64,000 bases of DNA from contig NZ_CP027942.1 of the NCBI RefSeq assembly GCF_005484985.1, positions 2,294,001-2,358,000 on the forward strand. The letters are read 5' to 3'. Positions 30,446-41,849 of this stretch are shown piece by piece. How positions within the stretch are numbered: the stretch's first letter is position 1; every line of letters starts with the position of its first letter. This stretch comes from Agrococcus sp. SGAir0287 (GTDB lineage Bacteria; Actinomycetota; Actinomycetes; Actinomycetales; Microbacteriaceae). A program made the translations under genes and the position numbers. The notes beneath the pieces were generated by a model. The model made no database searches and had not been told where the DNA came from. It was given only the letters and a program-made list of their open reading frames with translations.

Positions 30446-31390
30446 ATGCCGTCCGCCCGCTCGCAGGAGATGCTCGTGCGAGCAGCGACCCTGTACTACG
30501 TCGACGGGCTCTCGCAGGCCGAGGTCGCGAGCGCGATCGGCGTCTCCCGGTCGAACGTCTCGCGCGTGCTCGCCGAGGCGCGCAAGGCCGGCATCGTCAC
30601 GATCACCATCACGGATCCCTTCGGCCGCGCCTCCGACCTCGAGCAGCTGCTGCAGCAGCGGTTCGGGCTGCGCGAGGTGCGCGTCGCGCGCGGCTCGGAC
30701 GACGACCTCGGACGCGTGGGGCTGCTCGGCGCCGAGTGGCTCGAGCGCGAGCTGCCCCACGAGGGCGCGATCGCGCTGTCGTGGGGTGCGAGCGTGCAGG
30801 CCGTCGTCGACGCCGTGGAGCCCGGCAGGTCGCGGCCGCGGCTCGAGGTGCTGCCGCTCGTGGGTGGACTCTCGATCGTCGACTCCGCCCAGGACGGCAA
30901 CGTGCTCGTGCGCTCGCTCGCGACGCGGCTCGGCGCGAACCATCGGCGCCTCTACGCCCCCGCGGTGGTCGAGTCGGCGACGCTGCGCGACGGCCTGCTG
31001 CGCGAGTCGACCATCGGCTCCGTGCTCGATGCGGCGGCCGCGGCGCAGATCGCCGTCGTCGGCATCGGCGTCGTCGGGTCCGGCGCCTCGGCGGCGATCG
31101 TCGAGTCGACGAACCTGTCGCCCGACGAGCAGGCCGCGTTCGAGTCGTCCGGCGCGATCGGCGACTGCTGCACGCGCTTCTTCGACGCGAGCGGACGCCC
31201 CGTCGACTCCCCCGTCGACCGCCGTGTCGTCGCGATCGAGCTCGAGGCGCTGCAGGGCGTCGGCACTGTCGTCGCCGTCGCGGTGGGCGCGCGCAAGGCG
31301 CCCGCGGTGCGTGCGGCGCTCGCCGGCGGCCTCCCGGACGTGCTCGTCATCGACGAGCCGCTCGCGACGGCGCTGCTCGCCGAGGCGTGA
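30446..31390 (+). CDS. SorC-family sugar-responsive transcriptional regulator
   Basis: The 314-residue protein has an N-terminal helix-turn-helix (YYVDGLSQAEVASAIGVSRS and VSRVLAEAR) followed by the SorC sugar-phosphate-binding domain with LSWGASVQAVVDA, LPLVGG and VVGIGVVGSG. SorC proteins bind palindromic operators and respond to sugar phosphates. It lies at the left edge of the PTS/dehydrogenase island and is convergent with the EIIA gene (4-base gap). It is the best candidate for the regulator of the three GCAC-AT[TC]C-GTGC sites in this island. Confidence 0.9.
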   Translation: MPSARSQEMLVRAATLYYVDGLSQAEVASAIGVSRSNVSRVLAEARKAGIVTITITDPFGRASDLEQLLQQRFGLREVRVARGSDDDLGRVGLLGAEWLERELPHEGAIALSWGASVQAVVDAVEPGRSRPRLEVLPLVGGLSIVDSAQDGNVLVRSLATRLGANHRRLYAPAVVESATLRDGLLRESTIGSVLDAAAAAQIAVVGIGVVGSGASAAIVESTNLSPDEQAAFESSGAIGDCCTRFFDASGRPVDSPVDRRVVAIELEALQGVGTVVAVAVGARKAPAVRAALAGGLPDVLVIDEPLATALLAEA

Positions 31391-31394
31391 GCCG

Positions 31395-31859
31395 CTAGGC
31401 CAGCAGGGCGTCGAACGCCGCCGCGAGCTGGGCGGGCGTGCGCGCGGCGCGTAGCGTCGCATCCCAGCCGTCGCGCTGCACGAGGTCGACGAGCGAGGCG
31501 AGCACCTCGACCTGCGAGTGCGCCTCGGTGACGAGCAGCACGATGACGACGTCGACGTCGACGCGGTCGTCCGCCGTGCCCATGACGCCGAACGGCACGG
31601 GCGTCGCGAGGGTCGCGACCGCGAAGCCCGCCTCGAGCACGTGCGACGGATCGGCGTGCGGGATCGCGACCGGCACCGCCGTGGGCAGCCCCGTCGGGTA
31701 CGCGCGCTCGCGCGTCACGAGGGCGTCGGCGAAGGACGTCGCGGCGTGGCCGCCGCGGATCGCGTGATCGGCGAGCGCGCGCAGCGCACCCTCGGCGTCG
31801 CGGGCGACGAGGTCCACGGCGCACGCGTCGGGCAGCGCACGCATCGGGGTGCTGGTCAT
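31395..31859 (-). CDS. PTS EIIA component, fructose/galactitol type
   Basis: The 154-residue phosphocarrier has the active His in VAIPHADPSHV, which accepts phosphate from HPr and passes it to EIIB. Length and motif fit the stand-alone EIIA of galactitol-type systems. It is transcribed away from the EIIB and EIIC genes across a shared 123-base promoter region that contains a candidate operator. The opposite orientation from EIIB/EIIC is less usual and may allow separate expression. Confidence 0.88.
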   Translation of the reverse strand: MTSTPMRALPDACAVDLVARDAEGALRALADHAIRGGHAATSFADALVTRERAYPTGLPTAVPVAIPHADPSHVLEAGFAVATLATPVPFGVMGTADDRVDVDVVIVLLVTEAHSQVEVLASLVDLVQRDGWDATLRAARTPAQLAAAFDALLA

Positions 31860-31892
31860 GGAGCCTCCTCGCTCACGGATACCACCATCTTG

Positions 31893-31908
31893 GAGCACGG
31901 ATGTGCGC
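31893..31908. promoter_or_regulatory. Candidate SorC operator, EIIA/EIIB divergent promoter
   Basis: On the minus strand this reads GCGCACATCCGTGCTC, with core GCAC-ATCC-GTGC. It shares the core with sites at 39056 and 41836 and lies between the divergent PTS genes. Confidence 0.6.
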
Positions 31909-31982
31909 GTCGCGTGCATCGGGCGGCATCCGTGGTGCATGATCGAGGCATCTCCCGCCCCGAGCGATGCGAAGGAGCATCC

Positions 31983-32264
31983 ATGAGCGCGAAGCGCATC
32001 CTCGTCGTCTGCGGCACCGGCGTCGCCACCTCCACGGTGGTCGTCCAGAAGGTCCGCGCATTCTGCGAGTCGGAGGGCATCGACGCGACGATCTCGCAGG
32101 GTGCCGTCGCCGACCTCGTCAGCGGCAGCCCCAACGCCGACCTCATCGTCGCCACCACCCAGGTGCCCGCGACCGTGACGATCCCGGTGGTGCACGGCCT
32201 GCCGTTCCTCACGGGCATGGGCGTCGACGCCGTGCACGCGCAGCTGCGCGAGCACCTGGCCTAG
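31983..32264 (+). CDS. gatB: PTS EIIB component, galactitol type
   Basis: The 93-residue protein has the EIIB P-loop with phospho-Cys, VVCGTGVATSTVV, near the N-terminus, as in galactitol EIIB. It passes phosphate from EIIA to the incoming polyol bound by EIIC. ATG at 31983 follows AAGGAG. It is 122 bases ahead of the EIIC gene in the same direction. The polyol transported is not known; galactitol-type PTS also carry pentitols and tetritols. Confidence 0.88.
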   Translation: MSAKRILVVCGTGVATSTVVVQKVRAFCESEGIDATISQGAVADLVSGSPNADLIVATTQVPATVTIPVVHGLPFLTGMGVDAVHAQLREHLA

Positions 32265-32386
32265 CCGCTCGCGCCACCCGGCGCCCGCCCCTCCCGAGCG
32301 GACGCCGCGACCCCTCGGGGTCGTCGCAGCACGCGGGGATCCGCATCCGCGGACCCTCGCACCCATCGAAGCGAAGGAGCTTCCAC

Positions 32387-33841
32387 ATGGACTGGTTCAC
32401 CGATGCACTCTCGGCGGTCAGCGGATATCTCAGCGCCCTCGGCGCCTCCATCACGCTGCCGTTCCTCATCGCCATCTTCGGCATCATCCTCGGCCAGAAG
32501 GTGCCGCAGGCGATCCGCGCCGGCCTCCTCATCGGCGTCGGCTTCATCGGCATCAACCTCGTCATCGGCCTCATGGGCACGCAGGTCGGCCCGGCCGCGA
32601 CCGGCATCGCCGAGAGCCTCGGCGTGAACCTGACCACCATCGACGTCGGCTGGCCGTCGTCGGCGGCGATCGCGTTCGGCTCGACGATCGGCGCGATCAT
32701 CATCCCGCTGGGCCTGCTCGTGAACATCGTGCTGCTCGCCACCGGCATGACCCGCACGTTCAACATCGACCTCTGGAACTTCTGGCACACCGCGCTCGTC
32801 GGCGCGCTCGTGGCCGCCGTGACCGAGAGCTTCTGGCTCGGCATGGCCGCCGCCGCGGTGCACATGACCGTCGTGCTCGCCCTCGCCGACCTCTCGGCGC
32901 CGTGGATCCAGAGGTACTTCGGCTTCCCCGACATCTCGTTCCCGCACGGCACGTCCGCGCCGTACATCGCGTTCGCGGCACCGCTCAACTGGGTGTTCGA
33001 CCGCATCCCCGGCTTCAACCGCCTCAAGGCCGATCCGGCGACGATCCAGCGGCGCTTCGGCGTGTTCGGCGAGGCGATGATCCTCGGGTTCGTGCTCGGC
33101 ATCCTCCTCGGCATCCTCGGCTTCGGCTTCGACGACCCGCGCGCCGACTCGATCGCGATCCTCACGCTCGCCGTCTCGCTCGCCGCGGTCATGGTGCTGC
33201 TGCCGCGCATGGTCGCGCTGCTCATGGAGGGCCTCATCCCGATCTCGGAGTCGGCGAAGGCCTTCGTCGAGCGCCGCTTCCCGGGTCGGAAGTTCTACAT
33301 CGGCCTCGACGCGGCGATCGCCGTCGGCCAGCCGGCGGTGCTCGCGACGTCGCTCGTGCTCGTGCCGGTCACCGTCGTCGTCGCCGTCGCGCTCGCACCG
33401 CTCGGCAACACGGTGCTGCCGCTCGTCGACCTCGCGACCATCCCGTTCATCGTGGCGATCATGGTGCCGATCTTCCGCGGCAACATCGTCCGCTCGGTCA
33501 TCGGCGGCGCGATCGTCATCGGCATCGGTCTGTTCATCGCGACCGCGACCGCGGGATCGTTCACGCAGATCGCGCAGAGCGCGGGCTTCGAGCTGCCGGA
33601 CGGCGCGACGCGCATCTCGTCGCTCGTCGACGGCGCCAACCCGCTCACGGGCCTGTTCTTCGGCGCCTCGCAGCTGGGCGGCTGGACGATCGCCGTGCTC
33701 GCGGTGCTCGCGCTCGGGTTCGCATTCTGGGTGTCGCGGATCGAGCGCCGACGGGACCGCGACCGCGCCGCCGAGGCGGCGAGGGCGCAGTCGGAGGCGG
33801 AGGCGGCAGCAGCCGAGCGGCAGCGGCCGGCGGAGGCGTAG
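32387..33841 (+). CDS. gatC: PTS EIIC permease, galactitol type
   Basis: The 484-residue membrane protein has about ten to twelve hydrophobic helices and the GatC-family landmarks: GFIGINLVIGLMGTQVGPA, NIDLWNFWHTALVGALV, FPHGTSAPYIA and GLDAAIAVGQPAVLATSLV. The C-terminus is a charged Arg/Glu/Ala helix in the cytoplasm (about 450-484). ATG at 32387 follows GAAGGAG. It imports and, with EIIB, phosphorylates a polyol. It ends just before the double inverted repeat at 33878. Confidence 0.92.
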   Translation: MDWFTDALSAVSGYLSALGASITLPFLIAIFGIILGQKVPQAIRAGLLIGVGFIGINLVIGLMGTQVGPAATGIAESLGVNLTTIDVGWPSSAAIAFGSTIGAIIIPLGLLVNIVLLATGMTRTFNIDLWNFWHTALVGALVAAVTESFWLGMAAAAVHMTVVLALADLSAPWIQRYFGFPDISFPHGTSAPYIAFAAPLNWVFDRIPGFNRLKADPATIQRRFGVFGEAMILGFVLGILLGILGFGFDDPRADSIAILTLAVSLAAVMVLLPRMVALLMEGLIPISESAKAFVERRFPGRKFYIGLDAAIAVGQPAVLATSLVLVPVTVVVAVALAPLGNTVLPLVDLATIPFIVAIMVPIFRGNIVRSVIGGAIVIGIGLFIATATAGSFTQIAQSAGFELPDGATRISSLVDGANPLTGLFFGASQLGGWTIAVLAVLALGFAFWVSRIERRRDRDRAAEAARAQSEAEAAAAERQRPAEA

Positions 33842-33877
33842 GCCACCGGACGCGCCGCGACCCCGGCTCGCGCGCTC

Positions 33878-34235
33878 CCCACCAGCTGGTCGAGGAGCGC
33901 GCGAGCCCATGGGCGAGCACGCGTCACGAGACCACGCGACTGCCGCTCCCGCCCAGCCGTGCGCGTGCAGGCGTCGAGCGGGCACCGCGCGTGATCTCGT
34001 CACGGCTCCTCGCTCGCGCTCGCGGCCTCCTCGACCAGCTGCTGGGAAGCCCCGCCGAGGTGCCCCACCAGCTGGTCGAGGAGCGCGCGAGCCCTTGGGC
34101 GAGCACGCGTCACGAGACCGCGCGACGGCCGCTCCCGCCCAGCCATCCGCGTGGTCGCGTCGAGCGAGCACCGCGCGTGGTCTCGTGACGGCTCCTCGCT
34201 CGCGCTCGGGGCCTCCTCGACCAGCTACTGGGGAG
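33878..34235. repeat. Tandem pair of long palindromic elements (period 184 bp)
   Basis: Two units begin at 33881 and 34065. Each has a left arm starting ACCAGCTGGTCGAGGAGCGC and running to a GTCACGAGACC core, and a right arm that is its near reverse complement ending CTCCTCGACCAGCT. About 170 bases of each unit can form one long hairpin. It fills most of the 485-base gap after the EIIC gene. A related single copy is at 17069-17113. No open frame or transposase signature is present. Confidence 0.8.
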
Positions 34236-34276
34236 CCCAGCTGCGAGCGGGCGGACGATGCGATCGGCGGATGCGA

Positions 34277-34310
34277 CGAGGGGCCCATCGCCGCAGCGAT
34301 GGGCCCCTCG
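34277..34310. terminator. Hairpin terminator of the dehydrogenase operon
   Basis: A perfect 15-bp stem (34277-34291 with 34296-34310), loop CGCA, lies 17 bases beyond the E2 stop on the minus strand, and may also stop read-through from the EIIC side. Confidence 0.85.
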
Positions 34311-34326
34311 GTCGGACGGGTGGCGA

Positions 34327-35622
34327 TCAGCCCAGCAGCGCCGGGTTCGCCGCGAGCTCGCGCATGCGCTGGAGCACGCGTGCGGCATCCGCACCGTCCG
34401 CGACGCGGTGGTCGAGCGTGAGGCCGACGGTGCACTGCAGTCGCGGCCCGAACGAGCCGTCGGGCGCGACGAGGATGCGCTGGGCGATCGATCCCGTCGA
34501 CAGCGCCGACGACTGCGGCGGGGTGAGGAGCGCGTTGAACCGGTCGATGCCGAAGCCGCCGAGGTTCGACAGCACGCTCGTGCCGCCCTGCAGCCGGTCG
34601 GCCGACAGGGTGCCGGCCCGCGTCTGCTCGACGGTCTCGGCGATCGACGCCGCCAGGTCCGCGAGCGAGCCGCGGTGCGGGTCGACGAACACCGGTGCGA
34701 TGAGGCCCGAGGGGCTGTCCACCGCGAGGGCGATGCCCACGTGCGGGTTCGCGACCGGGCCGTCGTCGGTCCACGTCTGGTTGACGGGGGCCGACTCCGC
34801 GAGCGCCTGCGCCTGCATGCGCATGAGGATCGCCGTCCAGCTCGCGCCGCCGAGGGCCGTCTTGCGCACGGCGTCGAGCCGCGACAGGTCGAGGTCGACG
34901 TAGGCGGTGAACTGCGGCACGAGCGCCGACTGGTCCATGACCCGTGCGACCGCCATGCGCGTGCGCCTGCGCCGCGCCGCAGCGGGGTCGCTCGGCGACC
35001 TCGGCGCGGAGGTGGCGGATGCGGGGGTCGCGACCGGCACCGGCGCGGATCCGCCGGCAGGTGGTGCAGCCGGTGCCGGCGCGTCGGTGGGCTGCGGCGA
35101 AGGCGCCGCGGCGGGCATGGCGGACGACGCCTCGACGTCGCCGACGGTGATGGCGCCCCAGCGACCCGTGCCCTGCACGGCCGCGAGGTCGACGCCGCGC
35201 TCGCCGGCGAGCGTGCGCGCCGCTGGCACGGCGGCCGGCCAGCCGGGTGCGCCGGTCGAGGGCGCGGCGCTCGTCGCGGTCGGCGCCGGTGCTGCCGGCT
35301 CCGCCACGGCATTGGCGACCGGCGCGGCGTCGGCCGCGTCGGAGGCGGGCGCGTCGAAGAGGCCGCCGAGGAGGTCGTCGGAGTCGGAGGTGATGTAGGC
35401 GATGGGCTCCCCTACGGCCACGACGTCGTCGGGCTCCGCGACGATGCGCGCGAGCACGCCGTCGTACGGGCTCTCGACCTCCATGTCGACCTTGTCGGTC
35501 GTGACCTCGGCGATGGGCTCGCCGTTCTTCACGGCGTCGCCCGGCTGCTTCAGCCAGGCGACCATGGTGCCCTCCTCCATGGTCATCGACATCTTGGGCA
35601 TCGTCAGCGCGAGCTCGGGCAT
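34327..35622 (-). CDS. Dihydrolipoyl acyltransferase (E2) of an acetoin/pyruvate dehydrogenase-type complex
   Basis: The 431-residue protein has one lipoyl domain (about 1-80, lipoyl Lys in TTDKVDMEVES), a flexible Ala/Pro linker and an E1/E3-binding domain (about 130-170, with VPAARTLAGERGVDLA and GRWGAITVGDV). A second linker and the catalytic acyltransferase core follow, with LDHRVADGADAARVL carrying the active His and Asp. It would move an acyl group from E1-bound TPP to CoA. Its ATG is one base after the E1 beta stop. No E3 gene is present, so E3 must be shared from elsewhere. Confidence 0.93.
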   Translation of the reverse strand: MPELALTMPKMSMTMEEGTMVAWLKQPGDAVKNGEPIAEVTTDKVDMEVESPYDGVLARIVAEPDDVVAVGEPIAYITSDSDDLLGGLFDAPASDAADAAPVANAVAEPAAPAPTATSAAPSTGAPGWPAAVPAARTLAGERGVDLAAVQGTGRWGAITVGDVEASSAMPAAAPSPQPTDAPAPAAPPAGGSAPVPVATPASATSAPRSPSDPAAARRRRTRMAVARVMDQSALVPQFTAYVDLDLSRLDAVRKTALGGASWTAILMRMQAQALAESAPVNQTWTDDGPVANPHVGIALAVDSPSGLIAPVFVDPHRGSLADLAASIAETVEQTRAGTLSADRLQGGTSVLSNLGGFGIDRFNALLTPPQSSALSTGSIAQRILVAPDGSFGPRLQCTVGLTLDHRVADGADAARVLQRMRELAANPALLG

Positions 35623-35623
35623 C

Positions 35624-36700
35624 TCACCACTCCTGCACGAGCGCGGTGGCGGCGGCGACGATGTCGTCGACCTGGGGCACGACGGCGCGCTCGAGCTGCG
35701 GCGCGTACGGGATCGGCACGTCGAGGCCCGACAGGCGACGGATGGGTGCGCGCAGGTGCACGAACGCCTCCGACTCGGCGATGATCGCCGACACCTCGCT
35801 CATGAAGCCGAGCGTCTGCACCGCCTCCTGCACGAGCAGGGCGCGACCGGTCTTGACGACCTCGGCGAGGATCGTCGCCGAGTCGAGCGGGGTGAGCGTG
35901 ACGGGGTCGACGACGGTCGCCTCGATGCCCTGCTGCGCGAGCAGCTCGGCCGCCTCGAGGGAGCGCTGCACCTCGACGCCCGTCGCGACGATCGTGACGT
36001 CGCCACCCGTGCGGCGCACGGCGGCCTTGCCGATCGGCGTGCGCACGTCGCCCGTGCGCACCTCGAACGACTGCTTGTACAGCAGCTTGTGCTCGAGGAT
36101 CATGACGGGGTTCGGGTCGTCGAGCGCCGCGAGCAGGAGCCCCTTCGCGTCGTCGCCCGAGGCGGGCATGACGACCTTGAGGCCCGGGATGTGCGCGAAC
36201 CACGACTCGAGCGACTGCGAGTGCTGCGCCGCGGCCCCCGTGCCGGAGCCGCCGGGGGCGCGGATGACGAGCGGCACGCTCGCCTCGCCGCCGAGCATGA
36301 AGTGGATCTTCGCGGCCTGGTTGGCGATCTGGTCCATCGCCTGCGCCGTGAAGTCCGAGAACTGGATCTCGACGATCGGCTTCATGCCCGTCATCGCGGC
36401 GCCGACGCCGAGCCCGACGATGCCGAGCTCCGAGATCGTCGTGTCGCGGATGCGGTCGGTGCCGAGGTCGTCGACGAGCGTGCCAGTGACGCCGAACGCG
36501 CCGCCGTAGCGGCCGACGTCCTCGCCCATGAGGAAGACCGCGGGGTCCTGCTCGATCGCGATGCGCAGCGCGTCGCGGATGGCCTCGGCGTACGTCATCT
36601 CCGCCGTCTCGGCGCCCGGTCGGGCGCCGAGGCCGACGGGGTGCTCGTCGCCGGCGTGGATCGGCGCCGTCGGCGCCTGCTGCTGGTCCTGCAGCGTCAT
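35624..36700 (-). CDS. TPP-dependent dehydrogenase E1 beta subunit
   Basis: The 358-residue subunit has the transketolase-like Pyr and C-terminal domains: [57 protein letters not shown] and [11 protein letters not shown]. About 34 extra residues precede the conserved domain. The ATG at 36700 overlaps the E1 alpha stop by four bases. With E1 alpha it forms the heterotetramer that decarboxylates or cleaves the substrate on TPP. Similarity fits both pyruvate and acetoin dehydrogenases. Confidence 0.93.
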
Positions 36701-37686
36701 CGCATGACTCCCTCGCTCGAGGCGAACACGGCGTCCAGGAGGTTCTCGGGCGAGGCGTCCGGCGCCGCGGCAGCGCGCTGCACGGCGCCGCGCAGCTCGT
36801 CGCGCACCTCGTCGCGCACGGCCTGGATGTCCTGCTCGGTGAGCGTGCCCGCCTCGAGCACGGCCTTCTCGAAGCGCGCGATCGGGTCGTTCGACTCGCG
36901 CCACGACTCGATCTCGTCGCGCGTGCGGTACAGGTTCTTGTCGCTCTTCGAGTGGCCGCGCCAGCGGTACGTCTCGGCGACGATGAACGTCGGCCCCTCG
37001 CCCGCGCGGGCCCGCGCGACGGCCGTCTCGACGGCGTCGTGCACGGCCTGCACGTCGTTGCCGTCGACGGTGACGCCCGGGATGCCGTAGCCGTTCGCGC
37101 GGTCGGAGAGCTGCTCGAGCGGGAACGCCTTCGCCGACGACATCGACATGCCGTACAGGTTGTTCTCGCAGAGGAACACGACGGGCAGCCTCCACATGGC
37201 CGCGAGGACGACGCCCTCGTGCCACGCGCCCTCGCCCATCGCGCCGTCGCCGTGGAAGCAGACGGCGACCTGGTCGGTGCCGCGCATCTGAGCCGACAGG
37301 CCGGCGCCGGTCGCGATGGGCACGCCGCCCGCGACGATGCCGTTGGCGCCGAGATTGTTCGTCGCGGCGTCGGCGATGTGCATCGAGCCGCCGCGGCCCT
37401 TGCAGTAGCCCGTCTCCTTCGCGAGCAGCTCGGCCATCATCCGCTCGAGGTCGGCGCCCTTCGCGATGCAGTGCCCGTGGCCGCGGTGCGTCGACGTGAT
37501 GTAGTCGTCGCGCCGCAGCGCCATGCACGCGCCCGTCGGCACGGCCTCCTGGCCGATCGACAGGTGCATGGTGCCGTGCATGAGGCCGCGGCCGTAGAGG
37601 TCCTCGACGGCCTCCTCGAAGCGGCGGATGCGCCAGAGGGTGCCGAGCGCCTCGATGGCGGCGGCGCGGTCGGTGACGATCTGCAT
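36697..37686 (-). CDS. TPP-dependent dehydrogenase E1 alpha subunit, acetoin-dehydrogenase-like
   Basis: The 329-residue subunit has the TPP motif [13 protein letters not shown] through ENN, preceded by [13 protein letters not shown] and by [17 protein letters not shown] and NLGANGIV. The [14 protein letters not shown] wording is typical of acetoin dehydrogenase AcoA and its close relatives. In that family the enzyme cleaves a methyl ketone with an adjacent hydroxyl to acetyl-TPP and an aldehyde. Length and start (ATG 37686, overlapping the upstream stop by one base) are normal. It sits between the oxidoreductase and E1 beta in one operon, so the complex probably acts on the oxidoreductase product. 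Confidence 0.92.
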
Positions 37687-39029
37687 CAGCGAGCCCCCGC
37701 CCCGACGAGCGTGCCGAGGTCGATCGGGGCGTCGCCGCCGTCGAGCACGCCGGCGTCGAGCAGCAGGTCCTGCAGCCTGCGCAGCACGACGATCGTGCGC
37801 GACTCGTCGAGCGCCACGTCGTCGTACGTGATCGCGGTGCCCTTGGCGACGTCGCGCACGAGGGTCGCGGCGCTCGCGAGGCCGATGGGCAGCTCGCGAC
37901 CGGCGCGGGCCTCCGCCGCCGGCACGGCGTCGCCGTAGACGTGCTCGCCGCCGATGCCGTCGATGCGCTCGCCCGCGACGAGGTCGCGCTTCGCCATCGC
38001 CGACACGTCGGCCTTCCAGGCGCGCGGCGCGAGGGAGGGCTGGCCGTCGACCATGACCTCGCCGATCGACAGCACGGCCTCGACCGAGGCGAGGTGGTAC
38101 GGGCGGTAGAACGAGAAGTAGGGACCCTTGCCCATCTTGAGGTAGGAGAGCTCCTCGTGGACGACGGGGTGCGTCGCCTTGCCGATGACGAAGACGCCGG
38201 GGGCGACGTCGCCCGTGGCGTAGTCGACGACGCCGCTCGCCTCGAGGATGCCGCCGTCCTCGACGGGCTTGAACACGTCCTGCAGCGTCTTGACCGACGC
38301 CTCGGGTCCGTGCATGGAGCGGCGCGTGAGCTCGAGACCGGTCGCGTTGGCGAGGTCCGCCATCTCGATCATCGTCTTCGTACCGTCGACGAACGAGCAC
38401 AGCATGCGGGGGTTCATGCCCTTCTGCTGCGCCTCCTCGGCGAGGCTCTCGGGGGTGGCGTCCTGGCGCAGCGGGTTGTTCTTGCCCTTGCCCGCCATGA
38501 CGACCTCGAGGCCGATGTCCTCGACGAACTCGACGAGCTTCAGGCATTCGACGGGCTCGTCGCCGCGGCACACCGTGTAGATGGCGCCGGTCTGCTTGGC
38601 GACGGCCTGCAGCAGCAGGCCGACCGTCACGTCGGCCTCGACGGTCATGAGGGCGACGTGCTTGCCCGCGAGCAGCGACGCGAGGGCGACCTTGGCGGCG
38701 ACCTCGGGCACGCCCGAGACCTCGATGACCATGTCGACGGGGAGGCGCGTGAGCGCGAGGCCGTCGTCGAGCACGACGTGCCCGCCCGCCTCGATCGCGT
38801 CGACGAGCGCGGCCTCGTCGCCGCGGGTCACGTCCTCGATGCCTGCCTTGCGCAGCGCCGTCTCGGCGCGCTCGATCGCGACGTCGGCGACGGCGACGAC
38901 GTCGACGCCCTTCTGGCGGGCGATCTGGGCGATGAAGCCCGTGCCCATCTGGCCTGCGCCGACGAGTCCCACGCGGACGGGGCGCCCGAGGCGCTGCTCC
39001 CGCTCCACGAGCCTGCTGGTGTATCCCAT
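37686..39029 (-). CDS. Homoserine-dehydrogenase-like SAF-domain oxidoreductase, DXR-like (DRL) family
   Basis: The 447-residue protein has a Rossmann domain ([20 protein letters not shown] at about 19-38), a catalytic region with [32 protein letters not shown] and [14 protein letters not shown], and a C-terminal SAF-like domain. Length and motifs match the family that contains the alternative 1-deoxyxylulose-5-phosphate reductoisomerase (DRL) first described in Brucella, where MEP and DXP are interconverted with NADP(H). Many family members are uncharacterised. It is the first gene of the E1/E2 operon and has a palindromic operator upstream. I infer polyol-phosphate oxidation, not isoprenoid synthesis. 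Confidence 0.82.
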
Positions 39030-39055
39030 GGTCTCGACCTCTCCGAATCTCGCGT

Positions 39056-39073
39056 CATGCACATTCGTGCATG
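39056..39073 (-). promoter_or_regulatory. Candidate operator before the oxidoreductase-E1-E2 operon
   Basis: CATGCAC-ATTC-GTGCATG is a perfect 7-bp inverted repeat, 27 bases before the start at 39029. A second partial copy, GCGCACATTGTTGC, follows at about 39080. The core matches the sites at 31893 and 41836. Confidence 0.72.
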
Positions 39074-39166
39074 TAGACGCGCACATTGTTGCTCTTACGA
39101 TAGCAGGCTGTCGCCAGCCCGCGGGTGGATGGAGGCCGTCGCGAACGCGACGGGATCCCGAACGGC

Positions 39167-39198
39167 GCGAGCCCCGTCGCATCGGCGACGGGGCTCGC
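39167..39198 (-). terminator. Hairpin terminator of the glucitol-PTS operon
   Basis: A perfect 14-bp stem (39167-39180 with 39185-39198), loop ATCG, begins 3 bases after the gutM stop on the minus strand. It separates this operon from the oxidoreductase operon. Confidence 0.85.
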
Positions 39199-39201
39199 GG
39201 C

Positions 39202-39588
39202 TCAGCGCCTCTTGCGCATCGAGCGGTACTGCGCGATGGCCGACTCCACGGCCTCGCCCAGGCGCTTGTCCTTCGCACGGTCCCGAGCGCCCGAGAGCGA
39301 CCCCAGCAGCTCGGGATGGGGGCGGAAGCGAGCGAAGACGCTCGCGCCCACCATGGCCTCGGCCGCCTCGATGCGCGAGGAGGCCGAGTCGACGACGAGC
39401 AGCACCACGGCTCCTCGGAACCAGCCCTTGCCGCGGCCGGAGACGAGGAACGACTCCCGCGCGCCCTGGTGCTCGGCGACCATCCGCCGCGTCGCGCGCT
39501 GGTACGAGAAGTGCTGCCACAGGCTCAGCGCGATGCCGAGCAGCAGGACGACGAGGAGGACGATGCCGAAGCGTCCGTCCAGCTCCAT
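39202..39588 (-). CDS. gutM: GutM-like glucitol operon activator
   Basis: The 128-residue protein has one N-terminal membrane helix (about 8-25) and a basic cytoplasmic domain with FLVSGRGKGWFRGAVVLLVVDS. These are the hallmarks of GutM/SrlM, an accessory activator of glucitol operons whose mechanism is unclear. ATG at 39588 is 2 bases after the EIIA stop. It is last in the order EIIC, EIIB, EIIA, gutM. Confidence 0.85.
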   Translation of the reverse strand: MELDGRFGIVLLVVLLLGIALSLWQHFSYQRATRRMVAEHQGARESFLVSGRGKGWFRGAVVLLVVDSASSRIEAAEAMVGASVFARFRPHPELLGSLSGARDRAKDKRLGEAVESAIAQYRSMRKRR

Positions 39589-39590
39589 GG

Positions 39591-39965
39591 TCAGCCCCGT
39601 CGCTCGAGGGCGATGCGGTCGCCCGCCGCGATGGGGCCCGCCTGGCCGTCGACGAACACGGCACCCGGCAGGAGCGCCTGGTCGTCGGCGGGGTCGCAGT
39701 ACAGCACGACGTGACCGAGCTCGCGCAGGTTCTGGCCGGCGAGCTCGCCCGCCGCGCGCACCGTGAGCTCGGTGGAGCCGAGCACGACGACGTCGCCGGG
39801 CTGCGGTGCGAGGCCCTCGCCGGCGGTGCCGCCCTCGTGGACGACGCTCACCTCCGCGAGCGCATCCGGGCACGGCTCCCCGAAGAGGATGACCACCCCC
39901 GCATCGATCATGTCCTGGGCATCCGCCCCGATCCTCGTCACCGTCGCCTCGTAGAGCGTCGTCAT
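39591..39965 (-). CDS. srlB: PTS EIIA component, glucitol/sorbitol type
   Basis: The 124-residue protein matches glucitol EIIA (about 120 residues), with the phospho-His in SVVHEGG and a C-terminal GDVVVLGSTELTV and LGHVVLYCD. ATG at 39965 is chosen because GGAAGGG lies upstream at suitable spacing; an ATG at 39977 (MSST) is possible. It donates phosphate to the glucitol-type EIIB. The gene is 58 bases downstream of the EIIB gene. Confidence 0.88.
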   Translation of the reverse strand: MTTLYEATVTRIGADAQDMIDAGVVILFGEPCPDALAEVSVVHEGGTAGEGLAPQPGDVVVLGSTELTVRAAGELAGQNLRELGHVVLYCDPADDQALLPGAVFVDGQAGPIAAGDRIALERRG

Positions 39966-40023
39966 CGTGCTCGACATCCCTTCCATCGTTCGTCCCAGTC
40001 TCGTCGTCGTCGCGCGTTCGCCG

Positions 40024-41079
40024 CTACACCAGCAGGAAGCTGACGAAGTACGCGAGCACGACGGCCAATGGCGAGGTGATGAGCCTGGAGAACAGCACCG
40101 CCGGCACGCCGATCGAGACCGTCTCGGGCTTCGCCTCGCCGAGGGCGAGGCCCACGGGCACGAAGTCGCAGCCGACCTGGCCGTTGATCGCGAACAGCGC
40201 GGGCAGCGCGTAGGCGACGGGCAGGGCGCCGGCGCCGATCTGCGTGCCCATGAGCACGCCGACCACCTGGGCGATCGCGGCACCCGGGCCCAGGATGGGC
40301 GACAGGAACGGCAGGCCGGTGATGACGCCGAGCAGGATGAGGCCGAGCGGGTTCGACGCGAGCGGCGTGACGCCCTGCGCGATGAGGTCCGACAGCCCCG
40401 TGTACGTGACGAAGCCGATCAGGAGGCTCACGTACGCCATAAACGGGATGATCGTCTGCAGCACGAGCGTCAGCGCCTGACGGCCCGACGACAGCAGCGT
40501 GTTGATGATGCCGCCGATCACGCCGCCGAAGGACGTGGCCACGCGCGAGAAGACGCCGATGAAGCCGCCCTGGTTGCCAGCGTTCGCCTCGGCCTTCGCC
40601 GCCGCGATGCGGTCGGCGCCCACGCGGCTCGCCTTCGGGTCCGCCGACATGTCGAGGGCGTTCGCCGCCTGCGCGGGTGCCGCCGACGCCGTGACGTCCG
40701 CCCCCTCGCCGGCGAGCTCGACCTGCTCGACGCCGACCGCCGAGACGAAGACGTCGGGCGTGATGAACTGCGCGAGCGGGCCCGAGGGCTCGCCGGGGTA
40801 GACGTCGACCGTCAGCATGCGCTTCTTCGGGTAGACGCCGATGCGGGCGGTGCCGCCGCAGTTGATCACGACCGCCGCGACCTTGTCGTCGGGGACGGAG
40901 TTCGTGAAGCCGTCGACGGCCTCGGCACCCGTGAGCTCGGCGATGCGCGCCGCCACGGGGTGCACGCCGCCGCCCGTCACCGAGAGGATGACGTTCTTGT
41001 GCTCGTCGGGGGTCACGGTGAGGCCGGGGCCCCAGCCGCCGTTGCCCGCGGAGACGCGGACGCTCTGGAAGTCGCTCAT
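40024..41079 (-). CDS. srlE: PTS EIIB/C2 component, glucitol/sorbitol type
   Basis: The 351-residue protein has an EIIB domain (about 1-120) with phospho-Cys in VVINCGGTARIGVYPK and the opening SVRVSAGNGGWGPGL. A charged linker and a membrane domain (about 180-350) follow, with FMAYVSLLIGFVTYTGL and FINGQVGCDFVPVGLALGE-like landmarks of SrlE. It phosphorylates the polyol during import. It begins 2 bases after the EIIC stop. Confidence 0.92.
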   Translation of the reverse strand: MSDFQSVRVSAGNGGWGPGLTVTPDEHKNVILSVTGGGVHPVAARIAELTGAEAVDGFTNSVPDDKVAAVVINCGGTARIGVYPKKRMLTVDVYPGEPSGPLAQFITPDVFVSAVGVEQVELAGEGADVTASAAPAQAANALDMSADPKASRVGADRIAAAKAEANAGNQGGFIGVFSRVATSFGGVIGGIINTLLSSGRQALTLVLQTIIPFMAYVSLLIGFVTYTGLSDLIAQGVTPLASNPLGLILLGVITGLPFLSPILGPGAAIAQVVGVLMGTQIGAGALPVAYALPALFAINGQVGCDFVPVGLALGEAKPETVSIGVPAVLFSRLITSPLAVVLAYFVSFLLV

Positions 41080-41081
41080 GG

Positions 41082-41753
41082 TCAGGCCGCCTTCTTGGCC
41101 AGGCGAGCCGCACGTGCGTCGGCGAACTCGCGGTCGTAGCCGTCGAAGACCTCGGTGAGGCCCTGTCGGCGGATGAGGAAGCGGGTGATGAACTCCGTGA
41201 TGAAGCCGCGGAAGAAGATCACGACGATGCCCGTGAGGAAGTAGAGGATCGCGAGGACCGGGTACTTCTCGGGCGCAGCCTGCAGCACGCCGGCCGAGAT
41301 GCCCGCCCACACGAACAGCTCGCCGCCGTTGGCGTGCGGGAAGAAGGTCGTGACGGGGTGCACGAACGAGACGGCCGAGTCGTAGAAGGCGGGCTTCTGC
41401 CGCTCGGGCAGGTAGACGCCGAACGAGTAGCACATCGGGTTCGTCAGCAGGATGACCGCGAGGATCGGCATGAGCGTGTAGCGCGTGATCGCGAAGCGTG
41501 CGGAGAACTGCACCGCTCGCGTCATGCGCGCCTCGCCGACCCACGTCGTGATCGCGTACATGAGCGTGAGCAGCACGATCAGCGTCGGCAGGATGCCGGT
41601 CACGAGGCCGACGAAGGCCTCGCCGGATGCCTGGAAGAGTCCGATGAAGTGCGTGGCGATCCACGTCAGCACCTGCATCACGGGGTTGTCGCTTGCCGGA
41701 ACCGGCGGCGCATCAGTCGCCGCGAGGTGTCCGAGGGACGCTGCTTGGAGCAT
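41082..41753 (-). CDS. srlA: PTS EIIC component, glucitol/sorbitol type
   Basis: The 223-residue membrane protein aligns with SrlA through FIGLFQASGEAFVGLVTGI, MYAITTWVG, ITRYTLMPILAVILLTNPM and FFPHANGGELFVWAGI. Helices are at about 43-65, 100-120, 155-170 and 180-200. ATG at 41753 follows AAAGGCGG and adds about 30 residues compared with E. coli SrlA; an internal ATG at 41678 lacks a ribosome site. It is first in the operon and has a candidate operator 83-96 bases upstream. Confidence 0.9.
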   Translation of the reverse strand: MLQAASLGHLAATDAPPVPASDNPVMQVLTWIATHFIGLFQASGEAFVGLVTGILPTLIVLLTLMYAITTWVGEARMTRAVQFSARFAITRYTLMPILAVILLTNPMCYSFGVYLPERQKPAFYDSAVSFVHPVTTFFPHANGGELFVWAGISAGVLQAAPEKYPVLAILYFLTGIVVIFFRGFITEFITRFLIRRQGLTEVFDGYDREFADARAARLAKKAA

Positions 41754-41835
41754 CGGCCCGCCTTTCCGCCGACGCTTCGCTCGCGCCGGCGACCAGGTCG
41801 TCGAGGAGTCGACGACACGCCATTGTGTTGGGTTG

Positions 41836-41849
41836 TGCACATCCGTGCA
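41836..41849 (-). promoter_or_regulatory. Candidate operator before the glucitol-PTS operon
   Basis: TGCAC-ATCC-GTGCA forms a 5-bp inverted repeat with the same core and 4-base spacer as the sites at 31893 and 39056. It lies in the 185-base region upstream of srlA. Confidence 0.65.

Follow-up and report, generated by a model that had tools for sequence, protein, structure and literature searches.

A SorC-controlled gene island of Agrococcus sp. SGAir0287 that probably serves the catabolism of a phosphorylated C-methyl-branched polyol

The island and its genes

The 64,000-nucleotide stretch analysed here (the window) covers positions 2,294,001 to 2,358,000 of contig NZ_CP027942.1 of Agrococcus sp. 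SGAir0287 (Microbacteriaceae). It carries an island (30446..41849 of the window) in which two polyol phosphotransferase systems (PTSs) surround the genes of a DRL-family oxidoreductase and of the E1 and E2 components of a thiamine pyrophosphate (TPP)-dependent dehydrogenase complex. Judged from sequence, the island is probably a regulon under SorC control for the breakdown of a phosphorylated polyol with a C-methyl branch, for which 2-C-methylerythritol (ME) is the most likely candidate.

The central genes (hereafter the module) form a tight run of four on the minus strand, whose ends overlap or leave one base between them. They encode a DRL/DXR-II-type oxidoreductase (37686..39029; PF21135 DRL_cat, E 1.2e-66; PDB 3UPL, E 9.2e-110), which is proposed to convert 2-C-methylerythritol 4-phosphate (MEP) into 1-deoxyxylulose 5-phosphate (DXP), E1 alpha (36697..37686; PF00676, E 7.5e-89), E1 beta (35624..36700; PF02779/PF02780) and E2, a dihydrolipoyl acyltransferase with lipoyl, E3-binding and catalytic domains (34327..35622; PF00364, PF02817 and PF00198). 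All the parts of this run that define the broad 2-oxo acid/acetoin dehydrogenase complex type, namely E1 alpha, E1 beta and a lipoyl E2 with its E3-binding domain, are present. As a preliminary description of this DNA had stated, no E3 gene was seen among the open reading frames of the island; a tblastn of one E3 query against three fetched stretches gave no match either.

The regulator gene (30446..31390, plus strand) encodes a SorC-family sugar-binding transcriptional regulator of 314 amino acids (Sugar-bind PF04198, E 1.8e-61). Next to it lies a galactitol-type PTS, which consists of an EIIA of the galactitol/fructose type (31395..31859, minus strand; PF00359, E 4.9e-24), an EIIB (31983..32264, plus strand; PF02302, E 5.9e-14) whose top NCBIfam model is galactitol EIIB, under its cut-off, and an EIIC (32387..33841, plus strand; PF03611, E 4.4e-83; TIGR00827, 432.6 bits, under the cut-off of 542.2). 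On the other side of the four-gene run, all on the minus strand, are a GutM-type protein (39202..39588; PF06923, E 1.1e-11) and a glucitol-type PTS of the gut type with all its parts: EIIA, identified by Pfam (39591..39965; PF03829, E 2.5e-25), EIIBC (40024..41079; NF049924, 417.6 bits, above the cut-off of 400) and EIIC (41082..41753; NF049923, 189.6 bits, above the cut-off of 150). Pfam and NCBIfam thus bear out the two polyol PTSs and the operon of DRL, E1 alpha, E1 beta and E2 that the preliminary description had read at these positions; GutM is a further member, absent from its list. Between the galactitol-type EIIC and E2 lies a tandem pair of 179-nt repeats (33877-34055 and 34063-34241), which are 92% alike and have inverted arms of 30-33 nt.

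The shared operator and the genomic site

The operator GCACATYCGTGC occurs in exactly three perfect copies in the window, every one of them intergenic and within the island: in the gap that separates the divergently oriented galactitol-type genes for EIIA and EIIB (31895..31906, minus strand), directly upstream of DRL (39059..39070, plus strand) and upstream of the glucitol-type PTS genes (41837..41848, plus strand). With one mismatch allowed, five matches are found in the window, compared to 1.09 expected. The same operator is therefore common to both PTSs and the DRL operon, as first proposed. A longer form, TGCACATNCGTGCA (up to two mismatches), was sought in 41 related loci; 24 of them have an intergenic copy upstream of a gene for the module, a PTS or a regulator, by a hand count from rows with no shuffle control. 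In the 17 others, which include all three Bacillota, the single Spirochaetota and two of the three alphaproteobacterial loci, no such copy was found.

The island sits between ispDF and cysS in the window genome, and it occupies this site also in Salinibacterium, Cryobacterium and a metagenome-assembled genome (MAG) of the Microbacteriaceae. In Kocuria, it is flanked by carD and ispD. In Terrimesophilobacter, its neighbours are carD and cysS, and the fetched stretch gave no match to ispD or ispF. A location beside isoprenoid genes is thus common in this group, yet the module can persist where they are gone.

The oxidoreductase belongs with DXR-II

A search of solved structures (E <= 0.001) returned no match to the window DRL besides 3UPL and 3UPY, which are Brucella DXR-II. 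In a tree of 80 rows, 71 rows including 3UPL and the window protein are split from nine DLO-type rows with a support of 100 (SH-aLRT); it is a quick tree with SH-aLRT support alone, from which 13 near-copy or short loci were left out, and it holds no named DLO1 or DLO2 sequences. The phylogeny, which the preliminary description had put forward as a check, thus places the oxidoreductase on the DXR-II side.

According to the main text of PMC3847144, DXR-II is defined by members tested by complementation; Lys191, Lys193 and Thr229 (ligand anchoring) and Arg320 are named for it, and Ser or Ala at position 229 is a feature of DLO2. Six of the residues compared with the Brucella enzyme are kept in the window protein: these four, His250 and Tyr322. 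The active-site check suggested at the outset therefore holds for these six and fails at two further sites, Gly121 and Glu174, which are considered below. Of the four named residues, only Thr229 separates DXR-II from DLO rows. It is kept in 41 of 47 E1-linked rows, 7 of 8 rows with PTS only and all 15 unlinked rows, while the nine DLO rows have Ser (seven) or Ala (two). Membership of the window DRL in DLO was considered and is disfavoured by the tree and by residue 229.

DLO-type oxidoreductases are of the same superfamily as DRL (35-38% identity) and are likened here to DLO2 by residue 229 alone. At ten DLO-type loci, no E1 alpha match was found, and the only E1 beta match is weak, partial and about 9 kb away. 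The window genome has one such paralogue (38% identity to DRL; 2833723-2835030 of its contig C1), with GntR/FCD and SDR gene neighbours. DLO-type genes of the family (L045-L049 and L058) have GntR/FCD, MFS and DUF1537-type kinase genes nearby in several loci, the neighbour clusters being named from one member each. These neighbourhoods suggest a four-carbon acid sugar pathway.

The E1/E2 complex forms its own clade

Among 120 genomes of the family, E1 alpha has matches of 63-100% identity in five (the window genome, G082, G072, G069 and G095), and the next best is at 48%. The same five carry an E1-linked DRL. A close DRL (at least 47%) is found in these five and in G073, whose locus has PTS genes and lacks E1.

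In a tree of joined E1 alpha and E1 beta sequences (64 rows, i.e. 54 from module loci and ten references), all 54 module rows fall in one clade with a support of 96; this is a quick tree whose long reference branches make the edges of the clade approximate. AcoAB of an acetoin-reductase operon, pyruvate dehydrogenase (PDH), Thermus acoA and the two paralogues of the window genome are outside it. One of the ten references is inside, an E1 from Clostridioides difficile that is linked to a SorC-type gene. It belongs to a plasmid operon (L150) of SorC-type regulator, E1 alpha, E1 beta, E2 and lpdA, with no DRL in the stretch shown. Two E1 alpha residues, Thr39 and Asn111, are specific to the module and present in all 54 rows. 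At position 39, the references have Phe (seven) or Leu (three). Thr39 aligns with Phe65 of chain 1ni4_A; the equivalent Phe of branched-chain E1 presumably lines the substrate pocket. The distances of DRL and E1 alpha correlate over 46 loci (r 0.887, a value reached in none of 2000 permutations, with relatedness not controlled).

The complex resembles acetoin dehydrogenase (AcoABC-L) in its E1 alpha, E1 beta and E2, and some module loci also have an E3. However, the acetoin operon taken as reference also has an acetoin reductase and a butanediol dehydrogenase, which are not in the island, and the module E1 does not group with AcoAB of this operon (one such reference, on long branches). A true acetoin operon is disfavoured by this tree and by the gene content.

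Occurrence in other bacteria

Loci that combine DRL and E1/E2 are found in Actinomycetota, Alphaproteobacteria, Bacillota, Chloroflexota and Spirochaetota. The scan of named genomes covers the best 80 of at least 576 DRL loci, and a gene was scored wherever it lay in the fetched flanks (at most 10 kb per side, much shorter on some contigs). E1 alpha is present in 54 of these 80 loci, E1 beta in 52, both in 52, E2 in 41, the glucitol EIIBC in 49 and a SorC-type gene in 50. Both E1 genes occur together with EIIBC in 40 loci, and E1 alpha without EIIBC in 12. E3, HPr and EI are found in 8, 20 and 22 loci, respectively (from clusters of which one member each was named by Pfam). This recurrence across phyla disfavours a chance neighbourhood.

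Several loci are on annotated plasmids. The accessoryA plasmid of S. meliloti Rm41 has an ABC transporter, a PfkB sugar kinase, a SorC-type gene, DRL, E1 alpha, E1 beta, E2, lpdA and lipA; that of R. rhododendri has a glucitol PTS, ptsP, a SorC-type gene, DRL, E1 and E2; that of Shinella has a SorC-type gene, DRL, E1, E2 and lpdA; and that of Priestia has E1, E2, lpdA, an MFS transporter, DRL and an FGGY kinase. Ochrobactrum teleogrylli has two DRL copies: one has no E1 or PTS nearby. The other is accompanied by E1 alpha, E1 beta, E2, a SorC-type gene and PTSs of both types, and thus closely resembles the gene set of the window, in another phylum. An alternative entry seems to be provided by an ABC transporter with a PfkB kinase (L120, L122, L133 and S. 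meliloti) or by MFS with an FGGY kinase (Priestia). A kinase next to another transporter in some PTS-less loci points to a phosphorylated compound as the substrate of DRL.

Two kinds of loci without E1 in the stretch were also seen. At L042, L076 and L088, PTS and DRL genes adjoin class II aldolase-like, TIM-like and UPF0047 genes, perhaps for another fate of the DRL product. In actinobacterial MAGs (L084-L086, L093-L095 and L113), DRL adjoins one or two IspD-family genes, perhaps for biosynthetic use.

Isoprenoid genes in module-bearing genomes

A survey headed "INDEPENDENCE from isoprenoid synthesis" covered 51 genomes, which were checked for DXR-I, IspG, DXP synthase (DXS, scored present at E < 1e-50) and HMG-CoA reductase: the window genome and those of 50 of the 80 loci (40 of the 54 with E1 alpha, 2 of the 7 with PTS only and 8 of the 19 with neither). 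A gene missing from a draft genome or MAG carries less weight than one missing from the window genome, which is closed.

In the window genome, DXR-I is absent, and the sole DXS match is a partial one of 27.6 bits that falls within an E1-type gene. The genome keeps ispDF, IspG and two HMG-CoA reductase matches. Both DXS and DXR-I are present in its genus-mates G049 and G119, where neither HMG-CoA reductase nor a close DRL was found. Among the 41 E1-linked genomes, 25 have DXS, DXR-I and IspG, 4 have DXS and IspG without DXR-I, and 1 has DXR-I and IspG without DXS. In seven (Sediminivirga, Terrimesophilobacter, Brachybacterium and four MAGs), DXS, DXR-I and IspG are all missing, while HMG-CoA reductase is present. 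In three others (Thermovorax, Fervidicola and Hakubella), IspG alone was detected, without DXS, DXR-I or HMG-CoA reductase. This last pattern is that of genomes G139, G141 and G147 (loci L101, L106 and L131).

These data bear on whether the DRL is simply the biosynthetic DXR of its genome, as in Brucella. DXR-I is absent from the window genome and from all eight checked of the 19 loci that have neither E1 nor glucitol PTS (Fisher p 0.0011 versus E1-linked genomes; these eight are related alphaproteobacteria and hence not independent, and one of them, Ochrobactrum, has an E1-linked DRL copy elsewhere). On the contrary, the window genome lacks a DXS to supply DXP and has HMG-CoA reductase, 26 of the 41 E1-linked genomes keep DXR-I, and the operator is common with sugar PTS genes. 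A biosynthetic DXR role is extremely improbable, because some genomes that carry the module have HMG-CoA reductase and no detected MEP pathway genes, and because the window genome has neither DXS nor DXR-I. In addition, five of the eight E1-linked genomes that have IspG and no DXR-I contain a second DXR-II-type gene, with E1 near none of the five (one starts about 1 kb from a contig end); none was found in the window genome, Nitratireductor ZSWI3 or Hakubella. These unlinked copies fit two roles for DXR-II-type genes, biosynthesis for the unlinked ones and something else for the E1-linked DRL.

Alternatively, E1 alpha-beta could stand in for DXP synthase and DRL for DXR, so that the whole module would run biosynthetically. 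Thermovorax, Fervidicola and Hakubella would fit this idea, and mutants of E. coli PDH can yield DXP, as reported in the available text of PMC3424233. However, E2, E3 and lipoyl synthase would then be needless, the operator is common with PTS genes, the module is found in mevalonate-type genomes, and the supporting assemblies are drafts without completeness values. We consider this very improbable.

A third possibility is the salvage of ME for isoprenoids, in which the PTS would supply MEP to IspD and the E1/E2 complex would be a mere side branch. In the window genome, which keeps ispDF and IspG without DXS or DXR-I, MEP must come from elsewhere if these genes work. The IspD-family genes at some loci and the Listeria locus without E1 (see below) are also in line with salvage. 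It nevertheless seems improbable, since no IspG was detected in seven E1-linked genomes, and DRL, E1 and E2 are unneeded for it.

Proposed pathway and substrate

From what is observed, i.e. the gene content, the operator, the phylogeny, the co-occurrence and the genomes without MEP genes, we infer the substrate, the direction of flux and the products. The glucitol-type and/or the galactitol-type PTS would import and phosphorylate ME to give MEP. The DXR-II-type oxidoreductase would work in the oxidative direction and convert MEP and NAD(P)+ into DXP; the DXR reaction can run backwards. The dedicated E1 alpha-beta/E2 complex, with a shared E3, would then cut DXP between C2 and C3, which would release glyceraldehyde 3-phosphate and, via hydroxyethyl-TPP and acetyl-lipoyl-E2, acetyl-CoA and NADH. 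Cleaving a CH3-CO-CHOH unit is the chemistry of acetoin dehydrogenase. If uptake phosphorylates the substrate and a DXR-type enzyme and a lipoyl complex follow, the chain ME, MEP, DXP, acetyl-CoA and glyceraldehyde 3-phosphate is the simplest one. It is very likely on these grounds that the genes form a catabolic module in which a phosphorylated polyol is processed first by DRL and then by the E1/E2 complex; ME/MEP as the main substrate is a probable reading, of lesser strength.

IspD acts on MEP. In nine of ten loci tested, an IspD-family gene (PF01128) adjoins the module while the fetched stretch matches neither ispF nor cysS. These loci are of Nocardia, Amycolatopsis (two), Tamaricihabitans, Prauserella, Pseudonocardia, Actinomarina and two Ktedonobacterales (among them Ktedonosporobacter). 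The tenth, Kocuria, is an ordinary isp cluster. The top NCBIfam model is ispD for all ten. These neighbours and the position of DRL on the DXR-II side of the tree, where tested members make MEP, favour a methyl compound. ME and its glycosides have been quantified in woody plants, according to the available text of PMC10231375.

The same architecture could handle another substrate, such as the phosphate of a 2-C-hydroxymethyl tetritol (for example apiitol), of 2-methylthreitol or of a 1-deoxypolyol; the hydroxymethyl compound would give a pentulose 5-phosphate, then glycolyl-CoA and glyceraldehyde 3-phosphate. The transport and phosphorylation genes leave the substrate unfixed, with both glucitol-type and galactitol-type PTSs in the regulon, and residues such as Thr39 are specific to the module E1 alpha. 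The IspD-family genes and the MEP-making members described in the main text of PMC3847144 speak against such substrates, which we regard as unlikely.

Several observations weigh against ME catabolism as the role of the island. Regarding the substrate, the window DRL has Ala at Gly121 and Lys at Glu174; both Gly121 and Glu174 are present in nine of nine DLO rows, so these sites do not separate DXR-II from DLO here. His250, although His in the window protein, is kept in just 24 of 47 E1-linked rows. Nine of the ten IspD-family neighbours are below the ispD equivalog cut-off and one is above it, and a regulon with two PTSs may serve more than one substrate. Regarding the gene set, glucitol EIIBC and DRL occur without E1 alpha in 7 of the 80 loci, and neither EIIBC nor E1 alpha is found in 19 (several on short contigs). 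In Listeria innocua (L145), a SorC-type gene, DRL, GutM and the glucitol PTS genes lie in a row, and the stretch contains no E1. The DRL loci without E1 alpha imply that other fates of the DRL product exist. A PfkB kinase is present in just 3 of the 12 loci that have E1 alpha and no glucitol EIIBC (L120, L122 and L133), and the stretch of an Aminobacter plasmid that carries DRL, E1, E2 and an ABC transporter shows no annotated kinase. The second DXR-II copy of Thermovorax (L186) is near a galactitol-type PTS.

The pathway logic of the preliminary description is nevertheless supported by the DXR-II-side phylogeny with most active-site residues, the gene set found across phyla, the separate E1 clade, the kinase in some PTS-less loci, the IspD-family gene in some others, and the module in genomes without MEP genes. 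A much broader proposal is tentative and rather unlikely to hold in full: ME dissimilation would be widespread and unrecognised, and would be the main setting of E1-linked DXR-II, while bacteria without DXS (the window genome, Thermovorax, Fervidicola and Hakubella) would also feed the lower MEP pathway, by uptake of ME or by running E1 alpha-beta and DRL backwards. These bacteria would then be isoprenoid scavengers or users of a DXS/DXR bypass.

Relation to known systems and significance

The window DRL is of the same catalytic family as the Brucella DXR-II (3UPL). The main text of PMC3847144 describes DXR-II as an isoprenoid biosynthetic enzyme, whereas the window DRL shares a sugar-type regulon with a TPP complex, and its genome has no DXS. 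That main text has no catabolism, phosphotransferase or degradation wording, and its sole "operon" is in a reference title. The glucitol (gut/srl) and galactitol (gat) PTS operons have the same transporter families as the island, and share GutM with it. However, no sorbitol-6-phosphate dehydrogenase is encoded in the island, which has DRL and the TPP complex instead. Searches of open-access literature, judged mainly by titles and the openings of abstracts, gave no description of an ME or DXP catabolic pathway; the preliminary description knew of none either. In a paper on cloud water (PMC6529453), 2-methyltetrols appear just in a reference title.

If correct, the proposal would define a carbon-catabolic route for a plant-made sugar alcohol of the MEP pathway, and a subfamily of TPP-dependent dehydrogenases currently annotated as pyruvate or acetoin dehydrogenase. 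The main text of PMC3847144 reports functional DXR-II in Finegoldia, in which no MEP or mevalonate genes were found, and in Chloroflexus, which has the mevalonate pathway only; ME catabolism would offer an answer to the presence of this enzyme in bacteria without the MEP pathway. A DXR-II gene alone would then be no sign of isoprenoid synthesis, which would bear on its annotation as a drug target.

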